Source: Georgenia yuyongxinii
GTDB lineage: Bacteria > Actinomycetota > Actinomycetes > Actinomycetales > Actinomycetaceae
Length of the DNA: 64,000 nt
Direction: 5' to 3'
Assembly: GCF_006352065.1 (NCBI RefSeq)
Contig: NZ_CP040915.1
Coordinates: 1,674,001-1,738,000, forward strand
Shown here: piece after piece, positions 47,744-58,559 of the stretch
Numbering within the stretch: position 1 is the stretch's first letter
Layout: every line of letters starts with the position of its first letter
Program-made: the position numbers and the translations under genes
Notes under the pieces: model-generated
What the model was told of the DNA's origin: nothing
Database searches by the model: none
Seen by the model: the letters and a program-made list of their open reading frames with translations, nothing else

Positions 47744-49033
47744 TCAGCCGCGCACCGTCAGTGTCGCGAGCTCAGCCACCAGGCCCAGCAGCTCGTCGCC
47801 GAGCCCGTCGTTCGTCATGACGACCACGACGACGCCGTCCACCGGTTGGCAGTACGCCCAGGCTCGCGCCAGGGGCAGGGTGTCCGCGTAGCCGACCGCC
47901 GGGACGTCGGCGACCTCGGAGAGGTCCATCAGGCCGAGGCCGTAGCTGCGCAGCGTCCGAGCACCCTCCGCGGGGAACGCGGCCATCTCGGACAGGGAGG
48001 TCCGCGAGACCACCCGCCCCCCGCCCAGCTGCTGCCACCAGCGTGCGAGGCCGGCCGGGTCGCCCGCCAGCGCCCGGGCACCGCCGAGCGCGGACACCAC
48101 CGCCTGGGAGGGGAGCGGCCCGCCGGACGGTGCCGCGTCGACGTCACGCGCCGACGGCCCGGTCACGACCTCGTCGGGCTGCACCGCGAGACCCCCGAGC
48201 GCGGGGTCCGCGAGCACACCGCCGCGCAGGACCGCGGCGAGGGGGCGGCCGGTGACGTGCTCGAGCAGCTTCCCGAGCAGCACGTAGTTCGTCCCGGAGT
48301 ACGCCACGTCCTGACCGGGCCGACGGCGGGTCTGCGCCGGCGTCGCTGCCCTGAGCAGGTCGGCCGGTTCCCACGTGCGCGCCGGCTCGGCCCGTAGCTC
48401 GGCCGTGTACCAGGCTTTGTCCACGTCACGCAGGCCGCTGCGCATGCCGAGCAGCTCCCGGACGGTCGCCTCACCGACGGCGCCCGCCAGGGTCCCCGGC
48501 AGGTGCGCACGGGCGGGGTCGTCGAGACCGAGCACCCCGTCCTCGACGAGCCGCATCACCTGGGCAGCGACCACGGGTTGGGTCAGCCGCCCGGCGGCGA
48601 ACACGTGCCGCGGGGTCAGCGCGACGCCGTCGCCCGCGCTGCCGGACGCCCCGCTCCAGCGGCCGTGCGGCGAGATGACGGCGGCGCTGATGCCGCCGTC
48701 GAAGCGGGCGGCGATCCCCTCGGTGGATCGCGGTGCCGCGGCCCGGTCGACGGCGCGCTGGAGCGCGCGGGCCAGCGGGGCCGGCACCGGGCCGTCCGGG
48801 GCGCGGGCGAGCGGCGCGGTCGTGAACGGCAGCGGGAAGAGGGTCACGACGTCGGCCGGATCCGGTGCCGGGGGCACGCTGGACCGGACAGGCGTGGGCG
48901 CGGAGCGGCGGGCGACCGGCGCGGCGGCGGCCGGCGCGCTCGCCTGGTCTGCCCCGTCCGGCGGGCCGGGCGCGCACGCCCCACCGAGCGCGACGGCCAG
49001 GGCGATGACGAGGACGCCCCGGAGTGCGCGCAC
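47744..49033 (-). CDS. Lipoprotein, serine beta-lactamase-like pseudoenzyme
   Basis: A 429-residue protein of the beta-lactamase/D-alanyl-D-alanine carboxypeptidase fold (class C-like). The N-terminus is a signal peptide with a lipobox-like LGGAC (Cys20), then a Pro/Ala-rich linker to about residue 95. Where the family has the catalytic SxxK (as in FxxxSVTK), this protein reads FAAGRLTQ (about 144-151), so both Ser and Lys are gone; the second motif YxN reads YSG in AYSGTNYVLLGKLLEHVTG. The fold appears kept (the region from MRLVEDGVLGLDDP onward is well preserved), so it probably binds rather than cuts. GTG start; 15 bp after the transglutaminase gene on the same strand, so it is the last gene of that operon. 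Confidence 0.85.
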   Translation of the reverse strand: MRALRGVLVIALAVALGGACAPGPPDGADQASAPAAAAPVARRSAPTPVRSSVPPAPDPADVVTLFPLPFTTAPLARAPDGPVPAPLARALQRAVDRAAAPRSTEGIAARFDGGISAAVISPHGRWSGASGSAGDGVALTPRHVFAAGRLTQPVVAAQVMRLVEDGVLGLDDPARAHLPGTLAGAVGEATVRELLGMRSGLRDVDKAWYTAELRAEPARTWEPADLLRAATPAQTRRRPGQDVAYSGTNYVLLGKLLEHVTGRPLAAVLRGGVLADPALGGLAVQPDEVVTGPSARDVDAAPSGGPLPSQAVVSALGGARALAGDPAGLARWWQQLGGGRVVSRTSLSEMAAFPAEGARTLRSYGLGLMDLSEVADVPAVGYADTLPLARAWAYCQPVDGVVVVVMTNDGLGDELLGLVAELATLTVRG

Positions 49034-49048
49034 GGTGGCCCACCGGTC

Positions 49049-51262
49049 CTAACGCCGTCGTGCGCGCGGCGAGAGGAACACGCCGCGCAGCGCACCGGCC
49101 CGGCGCGAGGGCCACAGCCGCACCCGGGCCCGTGCACGCCACGGCGCGGCCCGGCGCACCTGGTCGACGACGGCGCGCACGTCCGCGCCCACGTCGCCCG
49201 CCGCGGCACCACCGGGGTGGTACCGCGACCGCTCGACCGTGGCGACCACCCGGCCCAGCGCCCCGGAGGCCGTCCCCACCGTCGGCCCGTACTGCCCACC
49301 GGCCTGCCGCGGCGTGGCCGACGCCGCCAGGGCGGGCACGCCCAGGTCACCGAGGTCGGCGACCAGACGCCGCCACTCCCGTTCGATCCGGTCGGCGTCC
49401 GGCTCAACCGGCCGGCGCCGCCGGTGCAGGACGGCGGCCGCGACCACGGCGCCGGCCCCCACCACCGCCACCCCGAAGCCCAGGGCCGCGGTGCTGCCGG
49501 CAGCCCGCGCCGCGGCTTCGGTCGGCGCCGCCGCAGCGTCCGGGACGGTCTCGGTGGGCGGTGCCGTGGCGCGCGAGCCGGGCACCGGCCCCGGGTCGTC
49601 CCCGCCGGCCGGCACGTAATACAGCGGCACGTCGCCCCCCACCCCGGGGGTCGGCTCGAAGCGGGTCCAGCCCAGCCCGTTGATGTACAGCTCGGGCCAC
49701 GCGTGAGAGTCGGCGAGCACCACGGTGTGCACGCCGTCGCTCCCCACGTCGCCGATCGCGAACCCGACGGCGAGCCGTGCGGGGATGTCGAGCGCCCGCG
49801 CGAGCATGACCATCGCCGTCGCGAACTGGACGCAGTAGCCCTGCCGGGAGTCCAGGAAGCTCGTGAGCGGATCGGGGTTGCCAGGTCCGGGGTCGGCGAG
49901 CTCGCGCGAGTACGTGTACGCCGGGCTGCGCAGGTGCTGCTGGATCGCCATGGCGCGGTCCACCTGGTTCGTCGCGTCCCCGGCCAGGTCCGTGGCGAGC
50001 TTCGTGACCCGGTCGCGGGCCTCCTCGTCGACGGCGAGGAGGTCGGGGCCGACCTCGCTGGGGGCGCCGGGCCGGCCCACACCGGCCGGCAGCGTGCTGC
50101 CGTACGCGTAGTACGTCGCGGTGTACGTGGTGACCGGGTCCTGCACGCGGGCGACCCCGAGGGAGTCGACGCCCCAGCCGGCCGGGACGTCCGCACCGGC
50201 CAGCGGTTCCGGCAGCGCGAGGCGGGGCCGGGGCAGCGCGTTGCGGGTCACCTCGAGCGTGTGCTCCTCGGCGCCGGCGGGTGGTGGCGTCGGGGCGAAC
50301 TCGTCGACCCCGCGCGTTGGGCCGACGAGCCACCGACCGTCGACGAAGCGCGTGCTGCCGGCCACCTTCAGCGGCGGCGGCTCGGCCTCGTCGGCGTGGA
50401 CCCGCAGGATCGGAGCCTGGCTCCGGTCGGGCAGGTCGGCCGCGAGGTCCAGCGAGCCGGTGAAGGTCCCGCCCGTGGCCGCGGCGACCGCCGTGGGTGT
50501 GCTCCGCGGGACTTGGGGCGCCAGGAGTGGCACGGCCGTCGCGGCTACGGTCACCGCACCGGCCAGCCACACCGCACCCATGCGGCCACGGCCCCGGGAG
50601 ACAGGCGCCTCGCCCGGCCGGCTGGTCCCGTGGCCGAGCATGAGCAGCCACGCGGCGGCTGGGGCGAGGAAGAACGCCGCGGGCAGCGGGCCGCCGTCGT
50701 TGGGGGCCGCGGCCAGGCACACCACCGCCAGCGGCACTCCCGCGAGCGCGGGGGACTCGTACGAGACCGCGACGGCGTGGACGGCGATGGCGAGACCGAT
50801 GAGCGCGGCGATGAGGAGCAGGACGACGCCGTCCGTCGCAGCCAGGGGGGCGACGTGCCGGCGGGCTGTCCAGGCCCCGTCCTCGAGGAGGCGGGCCGCC
50901 GCGGACATCGCGGAAGGCCGGGGCAGACCGAGCCAGGTGTGGTCGGGCAGGAGCAGCCAGCACGTGACGAGGGCCGCGGCGGCCGCCTGGGCACCCGCCG
51001 TCGGGGCGGCCCCCCACGCTCTGGAGCGCCCGATCGACCCCGCCGCCACGACGGCGACCGCCGCCGCGACGAACGGGCCGATCCAGCGGGGGTCGGCCAC
51101 CACGCGGAGCAGGGACCAGCCCGCCGCCACCGTGGCGAGACCGGCGAGAGCGGGGTCCACCACGTGGCGCAGCCGTGGCAACGCGGCGCCGGGCCGCGGC
51201 GGCCGCGGCGGCCGCGGCGGCCGCGGTGGCCGCGGCGGCCGCGGCTGACGTGCGGCCGTCAC
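49049..51262 (-). CDS. Membrane-bound transglutaminase-like protein (TgpA-type, DUF3488)
   Basis: A 737-residue protein. After an N-terminal tail with six RPP repeats (about residues 6-24), there are about six membrane helices (35-230), an extracytoplasmic part with the transglutaminase-like cysteine protease core (QGYCVQFATAMVMLAR, Cys about 479; VLADSHAWPELY, His about 515; Asp/Glu in WTRFEPTPG), one more helix (about 580-605) and a cytoplasmic tail. Such proteins are found with DUF58 and MoxR genes. Function in actinobacteria is unknown; a role in cell-surface protein processing or crosslinking is often supposed. The GTG at 51262 overlaps the DUF58 stop (GTGA). Confidence 0.9.
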   Translation of the reverse strand: MTAARQPRPPRPPRPPRPPRPPRPGAALPRLRHVVDPALAGLATVAAGWSLLRVVADPRWIGPFVAAAVAVVAAGSIGRSRAWGAAPTAGAQAAAAALVTCWLLLPDHTWLGLPRPSAMSAAARLLEDGAWTARRHVAPLAATDGVVLLLIAALIGLAIAVHAVAVSYESPALAGVPLAVVCLAAAPNDGGPLPAAFFLAPAAAWLLMLGHGTSRPGEAPVSRGRGRMGAVWLAGAVTVAATAVPLLAPQVPRSTPTAVAAATGGTFTGSLDLAADLPDRSQAPILRVHADEAEPPPLKVAGSTRFVDGRWLVGPTRGVDEFAPTPPPAGAEEHTLEVTRNALPRPRLALPEPLAGADVPAGWGVDSLGVARVQDPVTTYTATYYAYGSTLPAGVGRPGAPSEVGPDLLAVDEEARDRVTKLATDLAGDATNQVDRAMAIQQHLRSPAYTYSRELADPGPGNPDPLTSFLDSRQGYCVQFATAMVMLARALDIPARLAVGFAIGDVGSDGVHTVVLADSHAWPELYINGLGWTRFEPTPGVGGDVPLYYVPAGGDDPGPVPGSRATAPPTETVPDAAAAPTEAAARAAGSTAALGFGVAVVGAGAVVAAAVLHRRRRPVEPDADRIEREWRRLVADLGDLGVPALAASATPRQAGGQYGPTVGTASGALGRVVATVERSRYHPGGAAAGDVGADVRAVVDQVRRAAPWRARARVRLWPSRRAGALRGVFLSPRARRR

Positions 51263-52578
51263 CGCCGGCTCCAGCCGGCCGGGACAGGACCGGGGACGGC
51301 GGCGTGATGCCAGGCCGCCCGTACGGTCGTGCCGGCCCGCACCTCGACGCATCGCCATCCCGGTGTGCGCGGGAGCCCGGGGAGCGGGGCGGGCGCTGCC
51401 GGTACCGGGCCGCCGTACGAGAGGCGGCCTGCGCCGTCGAACGTCCTGGTCCGCAGGACGAGAAGCACATCGTCCCCGGCGCGCGAGCGGGTGCCCGCGC
51501 CCGCGAGGAACAGCGCCAGGTCCCGGTCGGGCACGACGGCCACGGTCGTGCCCCCACCGGCGCGGCCCAGGACGGGGAGGAGGCCGCCGAGGTCGTCGTC
51601 GACGAGGTCCGCGACGGCCAGGTACCGCAGCACCGTGGCGAGCACGAGCGGCCGGTCGGCGACGTCGTCGCGCACCGTCTCCGCCGTGACGAGGTGAAGA
51701 CCGCAGCCGTGCGTGGCCAGGGCGGTCGCGACGGACGCGAGCGCGGTGACCGCCCACTCGAAGGACGAGGTCGGGCCTGTGCCGCGGTGGGCCGACCATG
51801 ACGCGTCCAGGAGCAGCCGGGCCCGCGGCCCGACCGGGTGGTCCTCCTGGCGCACGATGAGATGGCCGTGGTGGGCGGAGGCGGGCCAGTGGACGCGCCG
51901 CAGGTCGTCGCCGACGCGGAAGGGACGGGTGGCGACGTCGTTCTCCCCGGCGGTGGGTGAGGGGAGGGACCGGGCACCAGCCCCCGCCAGCCCGGTCTCC
52001 CCGGGCAAGGCCTCCACCCGCGGCAGGACCACGATGTCGGTGGCCGGCAGCAGCTCGAGGTCGGTCCGGGTCAGACCGAACGGGTCCGAGCGGTGCAGCA
52101 CCAGCGGGCCGAGGGTGTGCCGGCCGCGGGCCGTGCCGCGCACCAGGTACGCGTGGGAGCTCCACGTGCCCGGCTCGGTCGTGGGCAGGACAAGGGGGTG
52201 CGAGCCGCCCAGGGCCGGGGAGAGGTGCTCGACGGCGGCCGCGGGCGGCGCGGTCCGCCACCCTGGGTTGGTGATCCGGAGCTCGACCTGGGCCGCCCCG
52301 TCGTGCGGGAGCAGGGGCATGGAGACGGCGCGGTGGGCGGCGAGGGACGGTGTGCGGCGGCCCGTGAGCACCAGCGCGGCGGGCAGGAGAAAGAGCAGCA
52401 GGCCGATGCGGGTGACGTCCGGGACCTCGACCACCAGGCCCACGACGACGGTGGCACCGCCGGCGATGGTGAACGCCCGGCCGCGGGCGGTCAGGTGCGA
52501 GGTGGCCATCGCCGCCCATGGCCGCAGGCCCGCCCGAAGGAGCGGACGGGGGGTACGGACCGCGGCTGGAGGCGTCAT
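51259..52578 (-). CDS. DUF58 domain protein (von Willebrand A-like), membrane-anchored
   Basis: 439 residues. Two hydrophobic helices near the N-terminus (about 33-75), then a DUF58 domain: LGPLVLHRSDPFGLTR (about 157-172), and the conserved DDLRRVHWPASAHHG (about 234-248) followed by LLLDASW (MIDAS-like Asp, about 268-274). The canonical context is MoxR-DUF58-transglutaminase; here the MoxR ATPase gene is absent and the LuxR regulator gene lies upstream instead. ATG 52578 is chosen; ATG 52510 would leave out 23 residues. The promoter region carries two TGTAAGGGGT-type boxes. Confidence 0.88.
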   Translation of the reverse strand: MTPPAAVRTPRPLLRAGLRPWAAMATSHLTARGRAFTIAGGATVVVGLVVEVPDVTRIGLLLFLLPAALVLTGRRTPSLAAHRAVSMPLLPHDGAAQVELRITNPGWRTAPPAAAVEHLSPALGGSHPLVLPTTEPGTWSSHAYLVRGTARGRHTLGPLVLHRSDPFGLTRTDLELLPATDIVVLPRVEALPGETGLAGAGARSLPSPTAGENDVATRPFRVGDDLRRVHWPASAHHGHLIVRQEDHPVGPRARLLLDASWSAHRGTGPTSSFEWAVTALASVATALATHGCGLHLVTAETVRDDVADRPLVLATVLRYLAVADLVDDDLGGLLPVLGRAGGGTTVAVVPDRDLALFLAGAGTRSRAGDDVLLVLRTRTFDGAGRLSYGGPVPAAPAPLPGLPRTPGWRCVEVRAGTTVRAAWHHAAVPGPVPAGWSRR

Positions 52579-52620: not shown

Positions 52621-52656
52621 ACCCCTTACAGGCATCGCCTGAGGACCCTTACACGC
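52621..52656 (-). promoter_or_regulatory. Two direct TGTAAGGGGT-type boxes before the DUF58 operon
   Basis: On the minus strand: GTGTAAGGGT (52654-52645) and CTGTAAGGGGT (52631-52621), with equal bases 23 bp apart. The nearer box ends 43 bp before the ATG at 52578. The same pair with the same spacing precedes the secreted-protein gene at 55878; the regulator gene lies between the two. Confidence 0.65.
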
Positions 52657-52685
52657 GCTCGATAGGCACTCAGGCACCGCTTTGT

Positions 52686-55600
52686 TCAGCCGGGCGGGCC
52701 GCGTCCGGGCCGCCGCGCCCGTTCCGGGCCCGGTCGCTCGGGGCCCGGCCGTTCCGGGCCCGACCGTCCCGCCTCGTCCGACGGCTGTCCCGGATGTTCT
52801 GGCCCGGCTTGTCCCGCCTGCTCCGAGCCGGGCCGCTCCGCACGTTGCGCGAGCCGGGCCAGCTCCAGCCGGCTGGCCGTCCCCGTCTTCTGCAGCAGGT
52901 GGGAGATGTGCACGCTGACCGTCTTCTCACTGATGGACAGGGCACGCGCGATCTCGCCGTAGGTCCGTCCGGCGACCACGAGACCGAGCACCTCCTGCTC
53001 GCGCGCCGTGATGCCGGCCAGCGCCGAGAACGCGTGGCCCGCGCTCGCCGGCTTGCCGTCCGTGTCCCGGCTCGGGCCGGGGATGGCCGAGAGGCTGATC
53101 CGGGCGGTGCGCGCCAGGTCTTCCAGCTCGGTCAGCAGCGGCACGGCGCGCAGGTCCGAGGCCATCTCGTGGGCGCGCCGCAACCACGCCGTCCCGCGGG
53201 CCCGGCCCCGCCGGTCGGTCAGGTACGCCTCGGCCGCCCGGCACGCGGCGTAGGCGGCGTCCCAGGGCAGCGACACCGCGGCGCACCGGTCTGCCACCTC
53301 CGCCCACGCGGGACCGGCGCCGGGGTCGGCCTGGGCACGCAGCCACTCGACGTCGTACATCGCCTGCAGCGCGGCGAGCTGTTCCGCGTACCAGGGCGGG
53401 GCGGACCCGCCGTCCTGCAGGACGGCGGGGTGCGCCCGGCGCAGCTCGCGCAGCCGGTCGAAGGTCTCGGTCAGCGCGGTGCCGTGGTCCCGGTGCTCCT
53501 GGGCCAGGTCGGCCAGCGCCCGGGCCGCCAGCGGGAGGAGCCACTCGGCGCGGGTGGGCGGCGGGCCCGGCGTGCTCACCCCGGTCAGTGCCGCGGCGAC
53601 GGCGCCCTCGAGGTCGCCCGCCGCCAGGGCGACCTCGGCCCGGGAGGCGTCGAACTCGAACGCGAGGAACTCGGACCGTTCCTCGTAGAGCTCCTCGGCC
53701 CGGTGCAGGTGACCCTGGGCCTCGGGCAGCCGGCCCTGACGGGTGGCGAGGAGCGCGGCGGTGAGGCGGGCGGTGACCTCGCCCATGGGACCGGGGGAGG
53801 ACCCGAGCGCCACGCGCAGGTTCTCCTGGCACTCCCGCCAGCGCCCCACCGTCAGCAGCGAGGAGGCCTCCGCCGCGCACAAGAACCCGACGTAGGTGTG
53901 CGGGGCGCCGAGCGCCGCGAGCTGCCGGCGCCGGGCACGCAGGGGCACGGTGTAGGCGGGTTCGGACCCGGCGGCCAGGGCGTTGGCCTCCCACAGGGCC
54001 ACGTGGCTGAACGCCCACCAGTCCTGCGCGTCGACCGCGGCGTCGATGGCCTCGTCGGCCCAGTCGGGGGCCGGGCGACCACCGCCCCACATGGTGCGGG
54101 CCATGGACCGGGCGGCGAGGGCGTAGGGCAGGGCGCGCCGGTCGTCGGCGACGCGGGCCGCCTCGACCGCCGCCTCGGCGTGGGCGTCGCCTGCGGGGTC
54201 GTCGTGCCAGATCTCCGCGTGGGCCAGCTCGGCGAGGGCGTAGGCGTACTGCCAGCTGTGCGGCCACGGGGCGGCGAGGCGGACGGCCTCGCGCACGTCG
54301 TCCAGGCCGGCGAACTTCCGGCCGGTGGAGTGGCGCAGGTTCATGCGTCGCACGCGCAGCGCGGCGGCCTCCAGCGGGTCGTCCAGCGGCTCGGCGAGCA
54401 GCTGGTCCACCGCGGTGAGCTCCTCCTCCTGCCGGCCGACCCGCTCGGCCGCCCTCCGGACCTGCTGGAGCAGCTCGACGCGTGACTCCGGCGGGTCGTG
54501 GACACGGCGGTGGAGCACGACGGCACGGCGCAGCAGCCGCAGCATCTCGGCGGTGCCGTGGGCGTCCGCGGCGGCCCGGGCCGCGCGTAACGCCCAGCGA
54601 TAGGCGAGCTCGTCGTTCCCGGCGCGGAAGTGATGGTCGGCGACGGCGGCCACCGCCCGCACGCCGTGGGACGCCGTCCGGGGCTCGAGCGCCGTCGCGA
54701 AGGCCGTGTGCCAGGCGCGGCGCTCCTCCGGCAGCACCCCGCTCTCGAGCACCTCGGCCTGCAGCGGGTGCCGGAACCAGTACGCGCCGCTGGCATGCAC
54801 CTCGAGCAGCCCCGCCGCGACGGCCTCGTGGAGGAGGGGGACGACGTCGTCCGGCAGTCCCACCGCGGCGCTGACGGTGCTCAGCACGGCCGCGGGCACC
54901 GGCGCGGCGCCGACCGCGAGCAGCCGGGTGAGCTCGCGGGCGGCCGGGGTCATGTCGTGCCAGGGCTGGAGCACCGCCTCGCGCAACGTGGTCGGGAGCT
55001 CGGCCGGCAGCCGGTGAGCGTCGAGGGGGAGGTGCTCGACGATCAGGCGGGTGAGGTACGCGTTGCCGCGCGTGTGCGAGTAGACGTCGTCGACCAGCGA
55101 CTCCCGGGCTGGGCCGCCCAGGATGGCGGCCATCTGGTTCGCGGTGCCGAGCCGGTCGAGCGGGCCGACCGGTGTCTGGGAGAAGCGCGGCATCCGGGCC
55201 GAGTCGGCCAGCCAGCGGTGCAGCGGGTGCCCGTCCCGCAGAAGCGTGAGGTCGCGGGAGGCGAGGAGCACCGCCAGCGGGCGCTCCGGCGGGCCGGCCA
55301 GCACGTAGGTGAGCAGGTCGAGGGTGCTCTGGTCCGCCCAGTGGAGGTCGTCGACGGCGAGCAGCACGGGCCGGCGTGCGCACAGCCGGTCCAGCCAGGA
55401 GTCGAACTCGACCACGACGTGATCGGTGCCCTCGCCGGGCTGGGGCAGCGTCGGGATGGGCGCTCCGGTGGTGCTCGCCCAGCGGCGGACCGCGGCGGCG
55501 ATCGGCAGCAGGGGCACGGACAGCGAGGTCAGTGGCAGGCCGGCACCCATCATGATCTCGGCCCGGGACGAGGTGAGACGGCAGACCTCCGAGAGCAGTG

Positions 55601-55739
55601 CCGTCTTCCCAATACCCGGCGCGCCGACCAGCAGGCGCATCCCGGAGCGGCCGGCGGCGGCGTCGTCGACCACCTCGAGGAGCTGGGCCAGCTCGACGTC
55701 GCGCCCCGCCAGCACCGGGTACTCGGCACCGACACTCAC
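52686..55739 (-). CDS. LuxR-family regulator with ATPase domain (LAL / MalT-like)
   Basis: A 1017-residue signal-transducing ATPase. The N-terminal AAA-type module has Walker A LLVGAPGIGKTALL (about residues 35-48) and Walker B VLLAVDDLHWAD (about 128-139). A long TPR-like helical region (about 300-880) should sense a ligand or protein. The C-terminal LuxR DNA-binding domain is complete (ITAREQEVLGLVVAGRTYGEIARALSISEKTVSVHISHLLQKTG, beginning about residue 920). A Pro/Glu/Arg-rich tail with RPGPE repeats follows. GTG start at 55739. Proteins of this type often bind direct repeats (as MalT does), and paired direct boxes exist in both flanking promoters. Confidence 0.93.
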   Translation of the reverse strand: MSVGAEYPVLAGRDVELAQLLEVVDDAAAGRSGMRLLVGAPGIGKTALLSEVCRLTSSRAEIMMGAGLPLTSLSVPLLPIAAAVRRWASTTGAPIPTLPQPGEGTDHVVVEFDSWLDRLCARRPVLLAVDDLHWADQSTLDLLTYVLAGPPERPLAVLLASRDLTLLRDGHPLHRWLADSARMPRFSQTPVGPLDRLGTANQMAAILGGPARESLVDDVYSHTRGNAYLTRLIVEHLPLDAHRLPAELPTTLREAVLQPWHDMTPAARELTRLLAVGAAPVPAAVLSTVSAAVGLPDDVVPLLHEAVAAGLLEVHASGAYWFRHPLQAEVLESGVLPEERRAWHTAFATALEPRTASHGVRAVAAVADHHFRAGNDELAYRWALRAARAAADAHGTAEMLRLLRRAVVLHRRVHDPPESRVELLQQVRRAAERVGRQEEELTAVDQLLAEPLDDPLEAAALRVRRMNLRHSTGRKFAGLDDVREAVRLAAPWPHSWQYAYALAELAHAEIWHDDPAGDAHAEAAVEAARVADDRRALPYALAARSMARTMWGGGRPAPDWADEAIDAAVDAQDWWAFSHVALWEANALAAGSEPAYTVPLRARRRQLAALGAPHTYVGFLCAAEASSLLTVGRWRECQENLRVALGSSPGPMGEVTARLTAALLATRQGRLPEAQGHLHRAEELYEERSEFLAFEFDASRAEVALAAGDLEGAVAAALTGVSTPGPPPTRAEWLLPLAARALADLAQEHRDHGTALTETFDRLRELRRAHPAVLQDGGSAPPWYAEQLAALQAMYDVEWLRAQADPGAGPAWAEVADRCAAVSLPWDAAYAACRAAEAYLTDRRGRARGTAWLRRAHEMASDLRAVPLLTELEDLARTARISLSAIPGPSRDTDGKPASAGHAFSALAGITAREQEVLGLVVAGRTYGEIARALSISEKTVSVHISHLLQKTGTASRLELARLAQRAERPGSEQAGQAGPEHPGQPSDEAGRSGPERPGPERPGPERARRPGRGPPG

Positions 55740-55794
55740 CGGCTCAGTCTCGCACCGGCCCACGGCGGGCGATAGGCCGCGGCGGCCCCCCGAT

Positions 55795-55825
55795 CTAAGG
55801 GGTGACCCCCGATGCTTGTAAGGGT
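55795..55825 (+). promoter_or_regulatory. Two direct TGTAAGGGGT-type boxes before the secreted-protein gene
   Basis: CTAAGGGGT (55795-55803) and TGTAAGGGT (55817-55825); the TAAG words are 23 bp apart, the spacing also found at 52621-52656. They lie in the divergent gap between the LuxR gene and the small secreted-protein gene, in the orientation facing the latter, with 52 bp from the last box to its ATG. Confidence 0.6.
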
Positions 55826-55877
55826 GTGCGTTAGGGAGCGTGGGGCCCACGACCTCGTGCGCAGAAGGAAGATCACC

Positions 55878-56138
55878 ATGAACCAGCACCGTTCCCTCAC
55901 AAGGCTCGCGGCTGCGGCCGGCGCGGCGGCGCTGACCATGCTGGCTCTGGCGCCGGCGGCCAGTGCGGCGGACCCAGACGCCCACCTGGCCTCGACGACC
56001 CAGACGGTCTACGAGACTTACCAACAGTGCCCCATCACCCAGATCGGCGGCCAGCTGTTCCGTTGCGACGTGGCCACCGGCGGGGGAGTCCGGGCACCGG
56101 CGCACGTCCCGCAGGGCGCGCACAGCACCAACGGCTGA
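55878..56138 (+). CDS. Small secreted protein with two cysteines
   Basis: 86 residues. A typical Sec signal peptide (about residues 1-30: basic MNQHR, hydrophobic core, ASA cleavage site) leaves a mature peptide of about 56 residues, with a short QCPITQIGGQLFRCD segment whose two cysteines (about 49 and 62) could form a disulfide loop. ATG at 55878 follows AAGGAAG. I recognise no family. It is divergent from the LuxR-family regulator and shares paired boxes with the DUF58 operon. Confidence 0.8.
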   Translation: MNQHRSLTRLAAAAGAAALTMLALAPAASAADPDAHLASTTQTVYETYQQCPITQIGGQLFRCDVATGGGVRAPAHVPQGAHSTNG

Positions 56139-56415: not shown

Positions 56416-56489
<74 letters not shown>

Positions 56490-56658
56490 CAAAATTGGTG
56501 TATAACCGCAGGTCAGAGGCTCGTAGAGGGACTTTTCGGAGTCTCGCGGCGGGCCTCTTTTCACGCGTTGACATCAGGTTTGACATCAAACGGCGGGTTT
56601 CGGCTGCCGCGGCCGGCTCCGGCACGTCCAACGGCCGTGCCGCAGCGGTCACGGCGCG
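56490..56658. other. Putative attachment-site flank with TTGACATCA direct repeats
   Basis: Lower-GC stretch after the tRNA. GTTGACATCAGG (about 56568) and TTTGACATCAAA (about 56579) share a TTGACATCA-like word 11-12 bp apart, resembling accessory binding sites near phage attachment sites. No gene is seen. Confidence 0.35.
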
Positions 56659-57134
56659 CTACTTCCGGAGGGCTTCGCAGAGCACGGAGAGGGCGGCGTG
56701 GGACGACTCGGGCGTCACGTGCCCGTAGACGTCGCCGGTGATGGCGATCGAGCTGTGGCGAGCAGCTAAGAGACGACCTTGAGGGGCACGCCGTTCTCGA
56801 GCATCACCGAGGCCGCCAAGTGCCGCAGCGTGTGGAGACCGACCCCGGGGAGGTTCGCCCTCTTCGCGGCCGCCTTCAATGCCCGCAGCGCGTCACGGGG
56901 GTCGCTCGGCTGGCCGGTCTCGGTGGTGAAGACGTAGGGCGTCTGGACCCACGCCGACCCTGCGGAGCGCCGCTCGATCTTCTGCCGCTCGCGGACGGTG
57001 CCGAGGATGGTGACCGCCGCGGGCGAGAGCGGCACGACGCGACGGGACTTCTCCGTCTTGGTGGTGGTGCGCAGGCTGTGCCCGGCCGGCGACAGGCGCC
57101 AGCGGGCGCGGACCCCGAGCGGGGGCCGTTTCAA
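56659..57134 (-). pseudogene. Tyrosine integrase remnant 1 (C-terminal domain)
   Basis: Catalytic domain of a phage/ICE-type integrase: KTEKSRRVVPLS, VFTTETGQP, HTLRHLAASVML (His/Arg motif). After PLKVVS, GAG has become TAG (stop at 56766) and one G is lost shortly after (about 56757-56760). In the shifted frame the end continues with SSIAITGDVYGHVTPE (catalytic Tyr) to a stop at 56659. The N-terminal half is missing: the frame breaks off 6 bp before the nitroreductase gene. So it is inactive by truncation, nonsense and frameshift. Confidence 0.85.
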
Positions 57135-57871: not shown

Positions 57872-58150
57872 CTACAGGTACGAGGCGCGCTTGAGTTCGG
57901 TCGACTCGGGCGCGCGGCGGCTACCGCCCCAGCGCCGAGGCGAGACGATCGATGGCGGATCGGCCCCCTCGGTGGAGACGTGCCCGTAGAGGTTCCCTGT
58001 GACCTGGACAGAGGCAGGGTCGAGGATTTCCGAGACGGTGCGCAAGGGGACGCCGGCCTCGAGCATGGTGGACGCGGCGGGGTGCCGAAGCGTGTGTATG
58101 CCGACGCCGTGGAGGGCCGCCTTCAGAGCGAGCCACCACCACGCGACCCG
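57872..58150 (-). pseudogene. Tyrosine integrase remnant 2 (C-terminal domain)
   Basis: About 90 residues resembling the end of an integrase: GVGIHTLRHPAASTMLEAGV (the HxLRH box), then VSEILDPASVQVTGNLYGHV with the catalytic Tyr, but the usual GH before AS is changed to DP. It is similar to remnant 1 (HTLRH.AAS.MLE.GVPL), so two related elements entered here. Upstream sequence shows no integrase start. Confidence 0.7.
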
Positions 58151-58559
58151 CCGCGGGTCAGAGCAGCGCCGGCCCTCGCGTAGGCGAGCGCGGCGTCGGG
58201 AGCGTGGACGCGGACGCCGCGTGAGCGATTGCCGATCGGTTATCTGGCGCCTCTGGCGGTTCGAAGCGGCCGAGCGGAGGGACGTCGCGCGCGGCCAGTC
58301 TCGGCCTCTGCGCCCAGAGTTTCGTTCGCCGCGCCCGGCGGCCTCCGCGGCTTTCGCCGGCGCTCGACCTTCGCACCAGGGATGACGAGAACGGGCCTCA
58401 CCCCGCACCCAGATCGTCCAGCGACGGTACTCAACCTGCCTTCGGTCGGTACCTAGGCCTCCCTTCCGGTCCCGAACGTCCTACGAATTCGTGCGCCAAC
58501 CGTCCGAACCTGGCTCTCGTACAGCGCCGGCTCACGGCGCTCCGGCCGAGGAGACAAAG
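58151..58559. other. Gene-free leader of the cai-like operon
   Basis: About 400 bp with no supported gene. It contains a perfect 10-bp palindrome ACGAATTCGT (58483-58492) and paired GGTAC words (58428 and 58449), possible operator sites for the operon starting at 58560. GAGGAGA precedes the ATG of the MFS gene. Confidence 0.4.

Follow-up and report, generated by a model that had tools for sequence, protein, structure and literature searches.

LAL regulators are, to our knowledge, numerous in actinobacteria, and for most of them the operator, the target and the inducer are all unestablished. MalT of Escherichia coli combines a STAND ATPase, a superhelical sensor and a LuxR helix-turn-helix (HTH) domain, and it oligomerises and binds promoters cooperatively at its own direct-repeat sites, an arrangement that suits cooperative oligomers (PMC10427625). 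The MalT box is GGGGA(T/G)GAGG (PMC7567727). A MalT-like LuxR regulator of the actinobacterium Actinoplanes sp. SE50/110 uses the site TCATCC-N5-GGATGA, which stands upstream of genes within a 51-gene region (PMC7567727). The SARP-LAL regulators, e.g. PimR, are actinobacterial and LAL-related as well, and they act on direct repeats (PMC5930380, PMC3367932). RRNPP pairs are defined by a propeptide of 10-100 aa with a Sec signal and a receptor of 250-500 aa with TPRs, encoded by adjacent genes (PMC10075063). None of the papers searched describes a system of a LAL and a secreted peptide.

The locus described here lies in a window of 64,000 nucleotides of the Georgenia yuyongxinii genome. Across several soil-actinobacterial families, a set of short boxes stands almost only before one secreted-peptide gene beside a MalT-like regulator. 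For one LAL clade there is now a defined candidate operator about 45 bp long, together with one conserved target and a secreted peptide family not described before, so that inducer, binding and peptide function become directly testable in ordinary soil bacteria.

The LAL gene (52686-55739, minus strand) encodes about 1017 aa from a presumed GTG start. The protein has an N-terminal STAND/AAA ATPase domain (Pfam AAA_16, E 2.1e-18) and a C-terminal LuxR HTH (Pfam GerE, E 7.2e-16, residues 912-966 of a 1019-aa query). A SARP domain is absent from the Pfam matches above the cut-off, which are AAA_16 and GerE only; matches to the sigma-70 region 4 HTH are sub-threshold. The AlphaFold2 model (mean pLDDT 78.5) predicts a STAND-TPR-LuxR fold, in which helical repeats at about 339-880 form a TPR-like superhelical sensor. 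The model matches the NOD/ATPase module of MalT (8bob; Z 20.5, rmsd 6.1, 373 residues) and MalT domain III (1hz4; Z 19.0, rmsd 5.5, 333 residues), and a structure search with it also matches the ATPase module to Apaf-1. The regulator has the features of the LAL family that were tested, namely an AAA/STAND ATPase, a TPR-like sensor, a LuxR/GerE HTH and a length near the 900-1000 aa usual for the family.

Operator 1 (55793-55826, plus strand) contains the box TCTAAGGGG, which includes CTAAGGGGT at 55795-55803, followed by CCGATGC at 55809-55815 and a second box, TGTAAGGGT, at 55817-55825. Operator 2 (52621-52672, minus strand) reads TGAGTG (52672-52667), TGTAAGGG (TAAGGG at 52651-52646), GCGATGC and CTGTAAGGGG (TAAGGG at 52628-52623); read directly, its minus-strand boxes are GTGTAAGGGT and CTGTAAGGGGT, around 52654-52621. 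The TAAGGG starts are 23 bp apart in both operators, each pair is directed at its own gene, and CGATGCYTGTAAGGG is common to the two. The pair ends 52 bp before the ATG at 55878 in operator 1 and 43 bp before the ATG at 52578 in operator 2, where a third box, TGAGTG, lies 21 bp upstream of the first. This direct reading agrees with the sequence-only reading in the coordinates of the boxes, their spacing and orientation. Beyond a 29-bp core the two promoters are identical at only 27 of 97 positions, which rules out a recent promoter duplication as the origin of the two sites.

A genome-wide search for the pair, which the sequence-only reading had suggested, located TAAGGG-N17-TAAGGG once on either side of the LAL gene and nowhere else, even with one mismatch allowed (genome of 4,171,640 bp, one contig); both matches are exact. 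The longer pattern TAAGGG-N9-GATG-N4-TAAGGG, searched with up to two mismatches in nine Georgenia genomes, has four matches in all: operators 1 and 2 (exact), one site before the orthologous peptide gene of Georgenia subflava and one elsewhere. From base composition, 0.0003 exact matches are expected per genome. The element TRAGG-N8-CYGATG alone is unspecific, with six matches in its own genome and one of them at the locus. With a matrix derived from other genera without the Georgenia sites, operator 1 ranks first of about 128,000 window positions and operator 2 third; operator 2 scores 1.5, and one unrelated window position scores higher.

The operator consensus from 25 non-redundant sites is AATCTSAGGGT and, at a spacing of 21 bp, TCTSAGGGG-N5-YCCGATGC, the whole operator covering about 45 bp. 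TCTSAGGG repeats with CCGATG therefore replace the TGTAAGGG pair, which had been taken for the full motif. In the Georgenia sites a further box lies 23 bp beyond, in a shifted arrangement, and all three boxes are present at the DUF58 site and at the site in a Micromonosporaceae MAG. The MalT box is absent from this consensus. The operator thus differs from that of MalT, and the target is a secreted peptide rather than maltose genes. The Actinoplanes site is likewise short, two-part and promoter-near with a GGATG-type half-site, whereas here an asymmetric repeat operator serves one peptide gene (PMC7567727). Unlike PimR, the regulator is predicted to bind DNA through its LuxR domain, lacks a SARP domain and has other repeats.

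The boxes are present in all six genomes with LAL orthologues, and the operator of the peptide gene occurs in Micrococcaceae, Nocardioidaceae and Georgenia. In the Micromonosporaceae MAG (L045:4539-5792), the three-box operator precedes a PAP2/vanadium-haloperoxidase-like gene in place of the peptide gene. Among 395 Micrococcaceae genomes, the pattern TNAGGG-N15-TNAGG-N8-CNGATG has 22 exact matches, compared with 4 for the reversed control. Nineteen of them lie at peptide-LAL loci, 18 with intact peptide genes and one (G739) before a truncated peptide beside a broken LAL; near the remaining three, neither LAL nor peptide was found. A leave-one-out matrix detects the operator at 30 of the 32 peptide genes that adjoin a LAL or LAL remnant and at none of the 10 that have no LAL neighbour (Fisher p = 4.5e-8, with related genomes counted as independent and the matrix refined on such loci). 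By this matrix one LAL-adjacent peptide gene (L266, LAL truncated) has no operator, and the Georgenia subflava operator falls below the threshold because of the shifted Georgenia arrangement. Chance repeats as the source of the boxes are ruled out by their uniqueness in the genome, by the low number expected and by their specificity in Micrococcaceae. Against the refuting conditions named in the sequence-only reading, the boxes are kept at orthologous loci and are not spread over many unrelated promoters: the operator is conserved, lies almost exclusively at this locus and co-occurs tightly with LAL. Upstream of LAL-less peptide genes of Micrococcaceae (L240, L241, L244, L252, L255 and L263) stands a GGGTAG or GGGGT-type sequence, then ACCCTTA(T/C), and this other element suggests a different regulator.

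LAL orthologues with 40-50% identity over nearly the full length occur in Georgenia subflava, the Micromonosporaceae MAG, Pseudarthrobacter, Sinomonas and two Mumia; the next homologues reach at most 33%. Twenty-eight peptide-linked LALs, among which the MAG LAL is counted (operator present, peptide absent), form one clade against 14 other LALs with a support of 100/100. LAL genes beside the peptide are broken or truncated at five Micrococcaceae loci (L249, L260, L266, L268 and L272), as if the regulator had often been lost in this family. Tandem LAL duplicates occur at L048, L238, L243, L253 and L258; at L243 and L253 another peptide, aberrant in its tail and with a weaker operator of its own, goes with the second LAL.

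The small secreted peptide gene behind operator 1 (55878-56138, plus strand), recognised from the family beside LAL orthologues and its profile, encodes 86 aa, an apparent signal peptide followed by CPITQIGGQLFRCDVATGGGVRAPAHVPQ. Members of the family are 70-95 aa long, those compared with RRNPP propeptides 75-93 aa, with signal peptides judged by eye, and carry the C-terminal signature CPLxRIGTQLVRCDxLTGAGVxAPxWVPE; the last 30 residues are nearly constant, and the N-terminal parts and the middle are variable. The gene adjoins LAL in five of the six orthologue genomes, the MAG being the exception, and the two genes are divergent in Georgenia, Pseudarthrobacter and Sinomonas and convergent in Mumia. 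The family profile finds the peptide in about 30 of 395 Micrococcaceae genomes and, at convincing E-values, in 5 of 342 Nocardioidaceae genomes. Micrococcaceae peptides without a LAL neighbour read TYVDCPLERIGxQLVRCDNLTG. The two cysteines, 11 residues apart, are either both kept or both missing (Sinomonas), and this joint presence or absence suggests a disulfide. The AlphaFold2 model of the peptide has a low mean pLDDT (58.9), with about 73 around a beta hairpin between the cysteines, and the conserved C-terminal hairpin is probably closed by that disulfide. The peptide is an undescribed secreted family: searches of Pfam and NCBIfam families and solved structures gave nothing above the cut-off, a plasmid search gave zero matches, and a literature text search for the motif found no paper. 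At E 0.012 and 16 bits, where the cut-off is 197, an NCBIfam match to 'protease inhibitor' has no significance.

Operator 2 precedes the gene of a DUF58 protein (51259-52578, minus strand; Pfam DUF58). Further downstream lie the genes of a TgpA-like membrane transglutaminase (49049-51262, minus strand; Pfam TgpA_N and Transglut_core), whose start overlaps the DUF58 stop (GTGA), and of an apparently exported beta-lactamase-fold protein (47744-49033, minus strand; Pfam Beta-lactamase). The last has, by eye, AAGRLTQ at the expected SxxK position and is probably not an active enzyme, its catalytic SxxK apparently being replaced. The genome has a DUF58 paralogue elsewhere (C1:2598411-2599541), 45% identical to the window copy, and other Georgenia species have one main DUF58 copy with 44-46% identity. 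Homologues of DUF58, transglutaminase or beta-lactamase were found near LAL in none of the six orthologous loci and none of 33 Micrococcaceae peptide loci, which suggests that the envelope link is a local addition and not the core of the system. The DUF58 operon would thus be a second target, specific to this lineage and seen in this genome only, and its site is the weaker one. These comparisons support the earlier proposal as far as it concerns a regulator of the MalT class (LAL) that has a direct-repeat operator of its own and would control, among other genes, that of the secreted two-cysteine protein, and a predicted conserved regulon of LAL and secreted peptide is well supported. The extension of the proposal to an undescribed regulon with a core of DUF58, transglutaminase and lipoprotein is not supported in that form, because homologues of DUF58, transglutaminase or beta-lactamase are absent near LAL at the other loci examined.

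The boxes are likely to be the operator of the LAL encoded between them, which would act as a MalT-like STAND activator of the peptide gene and, in this genome, also of the DUF58 operon. An inducer that binds the TPR sensor would bring the ATPase module into an open and oligomeric state. The LuxR domains would then bind cooperatively to the direct TCTSAGGG repeats, whose spacing of 21-23 bp would correspond to about two helical turns, and to the adjoining CCGATG half-site. Bound LAL would recruit RNA polymerase to a promoter that lies some tens of bp further downstream, and its conserved target would be the adjacent gene, which encodes a small exported peptide. The second operator would bring the DUF58/transglutaminase/pseudo-beta-lactamase operon under the same control, and because the same site precedes that operon here, peptide and envelope operon would switch together.

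Being short, conserved and set at a fixed distance before genes, the boxes could also be promoter elements, e.g. of an ECF sigma factor, and a strong sigma-70 promoter is not obvious by eye. However, two or three copies 21-23 bp apart with CCGATG are unlike a -35/-10 pair, the element is nearly private to the peptide-LAL locus in Micrococcaceae, and its presence follows an adjacent LAL, LAL-less peptide homologues having other upstream sequence. This makes an origin as promoter elements very improbable. Control of the peptide gene alone, with the DUF58 boxes fortuitous or serving another factor, would be in line with the absence of the envelope genes near LAL at all other loci examined and with the weak external-matrix score of the DUF58 site. 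This site nevertheless agrees with the Georgenia pattern at each of its 16 fixed positions, for an expectation of 0.0003 per genome. It also has the third box, spaced by the canonical 21 bp, stands about as far from its start codon as operator 1 does and borders the LAL gene at the 3' end, so that we regard peptide-only control as rather unlikely. LAL might instead repress the peptide gene as well as its own expression until relieved by a ligand, since in divergent arrangements the LAL and peptide genes have the operator between them, from where it could act on either. In Mumia, however, the two genes are convergent and the operator stands before the peptide gene only. Most MalT-class regulators are activators, and repression by LAL seems improbable.

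The activator reading is compatible with an autoinducing loop, which would also say what the inducer is: in such a peptide quorum-sensing pair, LAL's own ligand would be the secreted peptide, whole or as a fragment. Such a loop is conceivable because the peptide gene adjoins that of a TPR regulator, and in the peptide a variable middle precedes a conserved C-terminal segment. Peptide-bound Rap is among the top structural matches of the sensor (Z 23.0, rmsd 5.7, 339 residues), but high Z values are common for helical-repeat folds in general. Moreover, the C-terminal segment is near-invariant between genera, unlike typical pheromones, some peptide copies have no LAL neighbour, and the peptide would have to be imported. 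The gene layout, a small exported propeptide directly beside an intracellular, TPR-bearing DNA-binding regulator, is the one that defines RRNPP pairs (PMC10075063). In contrast to those pairs, the regulator here has an ATPase and, at about 1017 aa, exceeds the 250-500 aa range by roughly a factor of two, the system belongs to actinobacteria and not Firmicutes, and the peptide segment is conserved across genera and likely disulfide-closed (PMC10075063). We consider the putative autoinducing loop quite unlikely. Also doubtful is the wider proposal that a STAND regulator senses its own adjacent, disulfide-closed secreted peptide and here switches on a DUF58/transglutaminase envelope operon. The peptide may act as effector or signal or in both ways; an effector role is favoured because the peptide is near-invariant across genera and has copies without a LAL neighbour. 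The locus raises the question whether peptide signalling can be linked to STAND regulators in actinobacteria.

Just past the peptide gene there is a tRNA-Pro gene, and beyond it a nitroreductase gene with one Phage_integrase fragment on either side (56416-56490, 56769-57134 and 57875-58408). This stretch apparently represents the remains of a mobile-element integration site beside the LAL-peptide locus.
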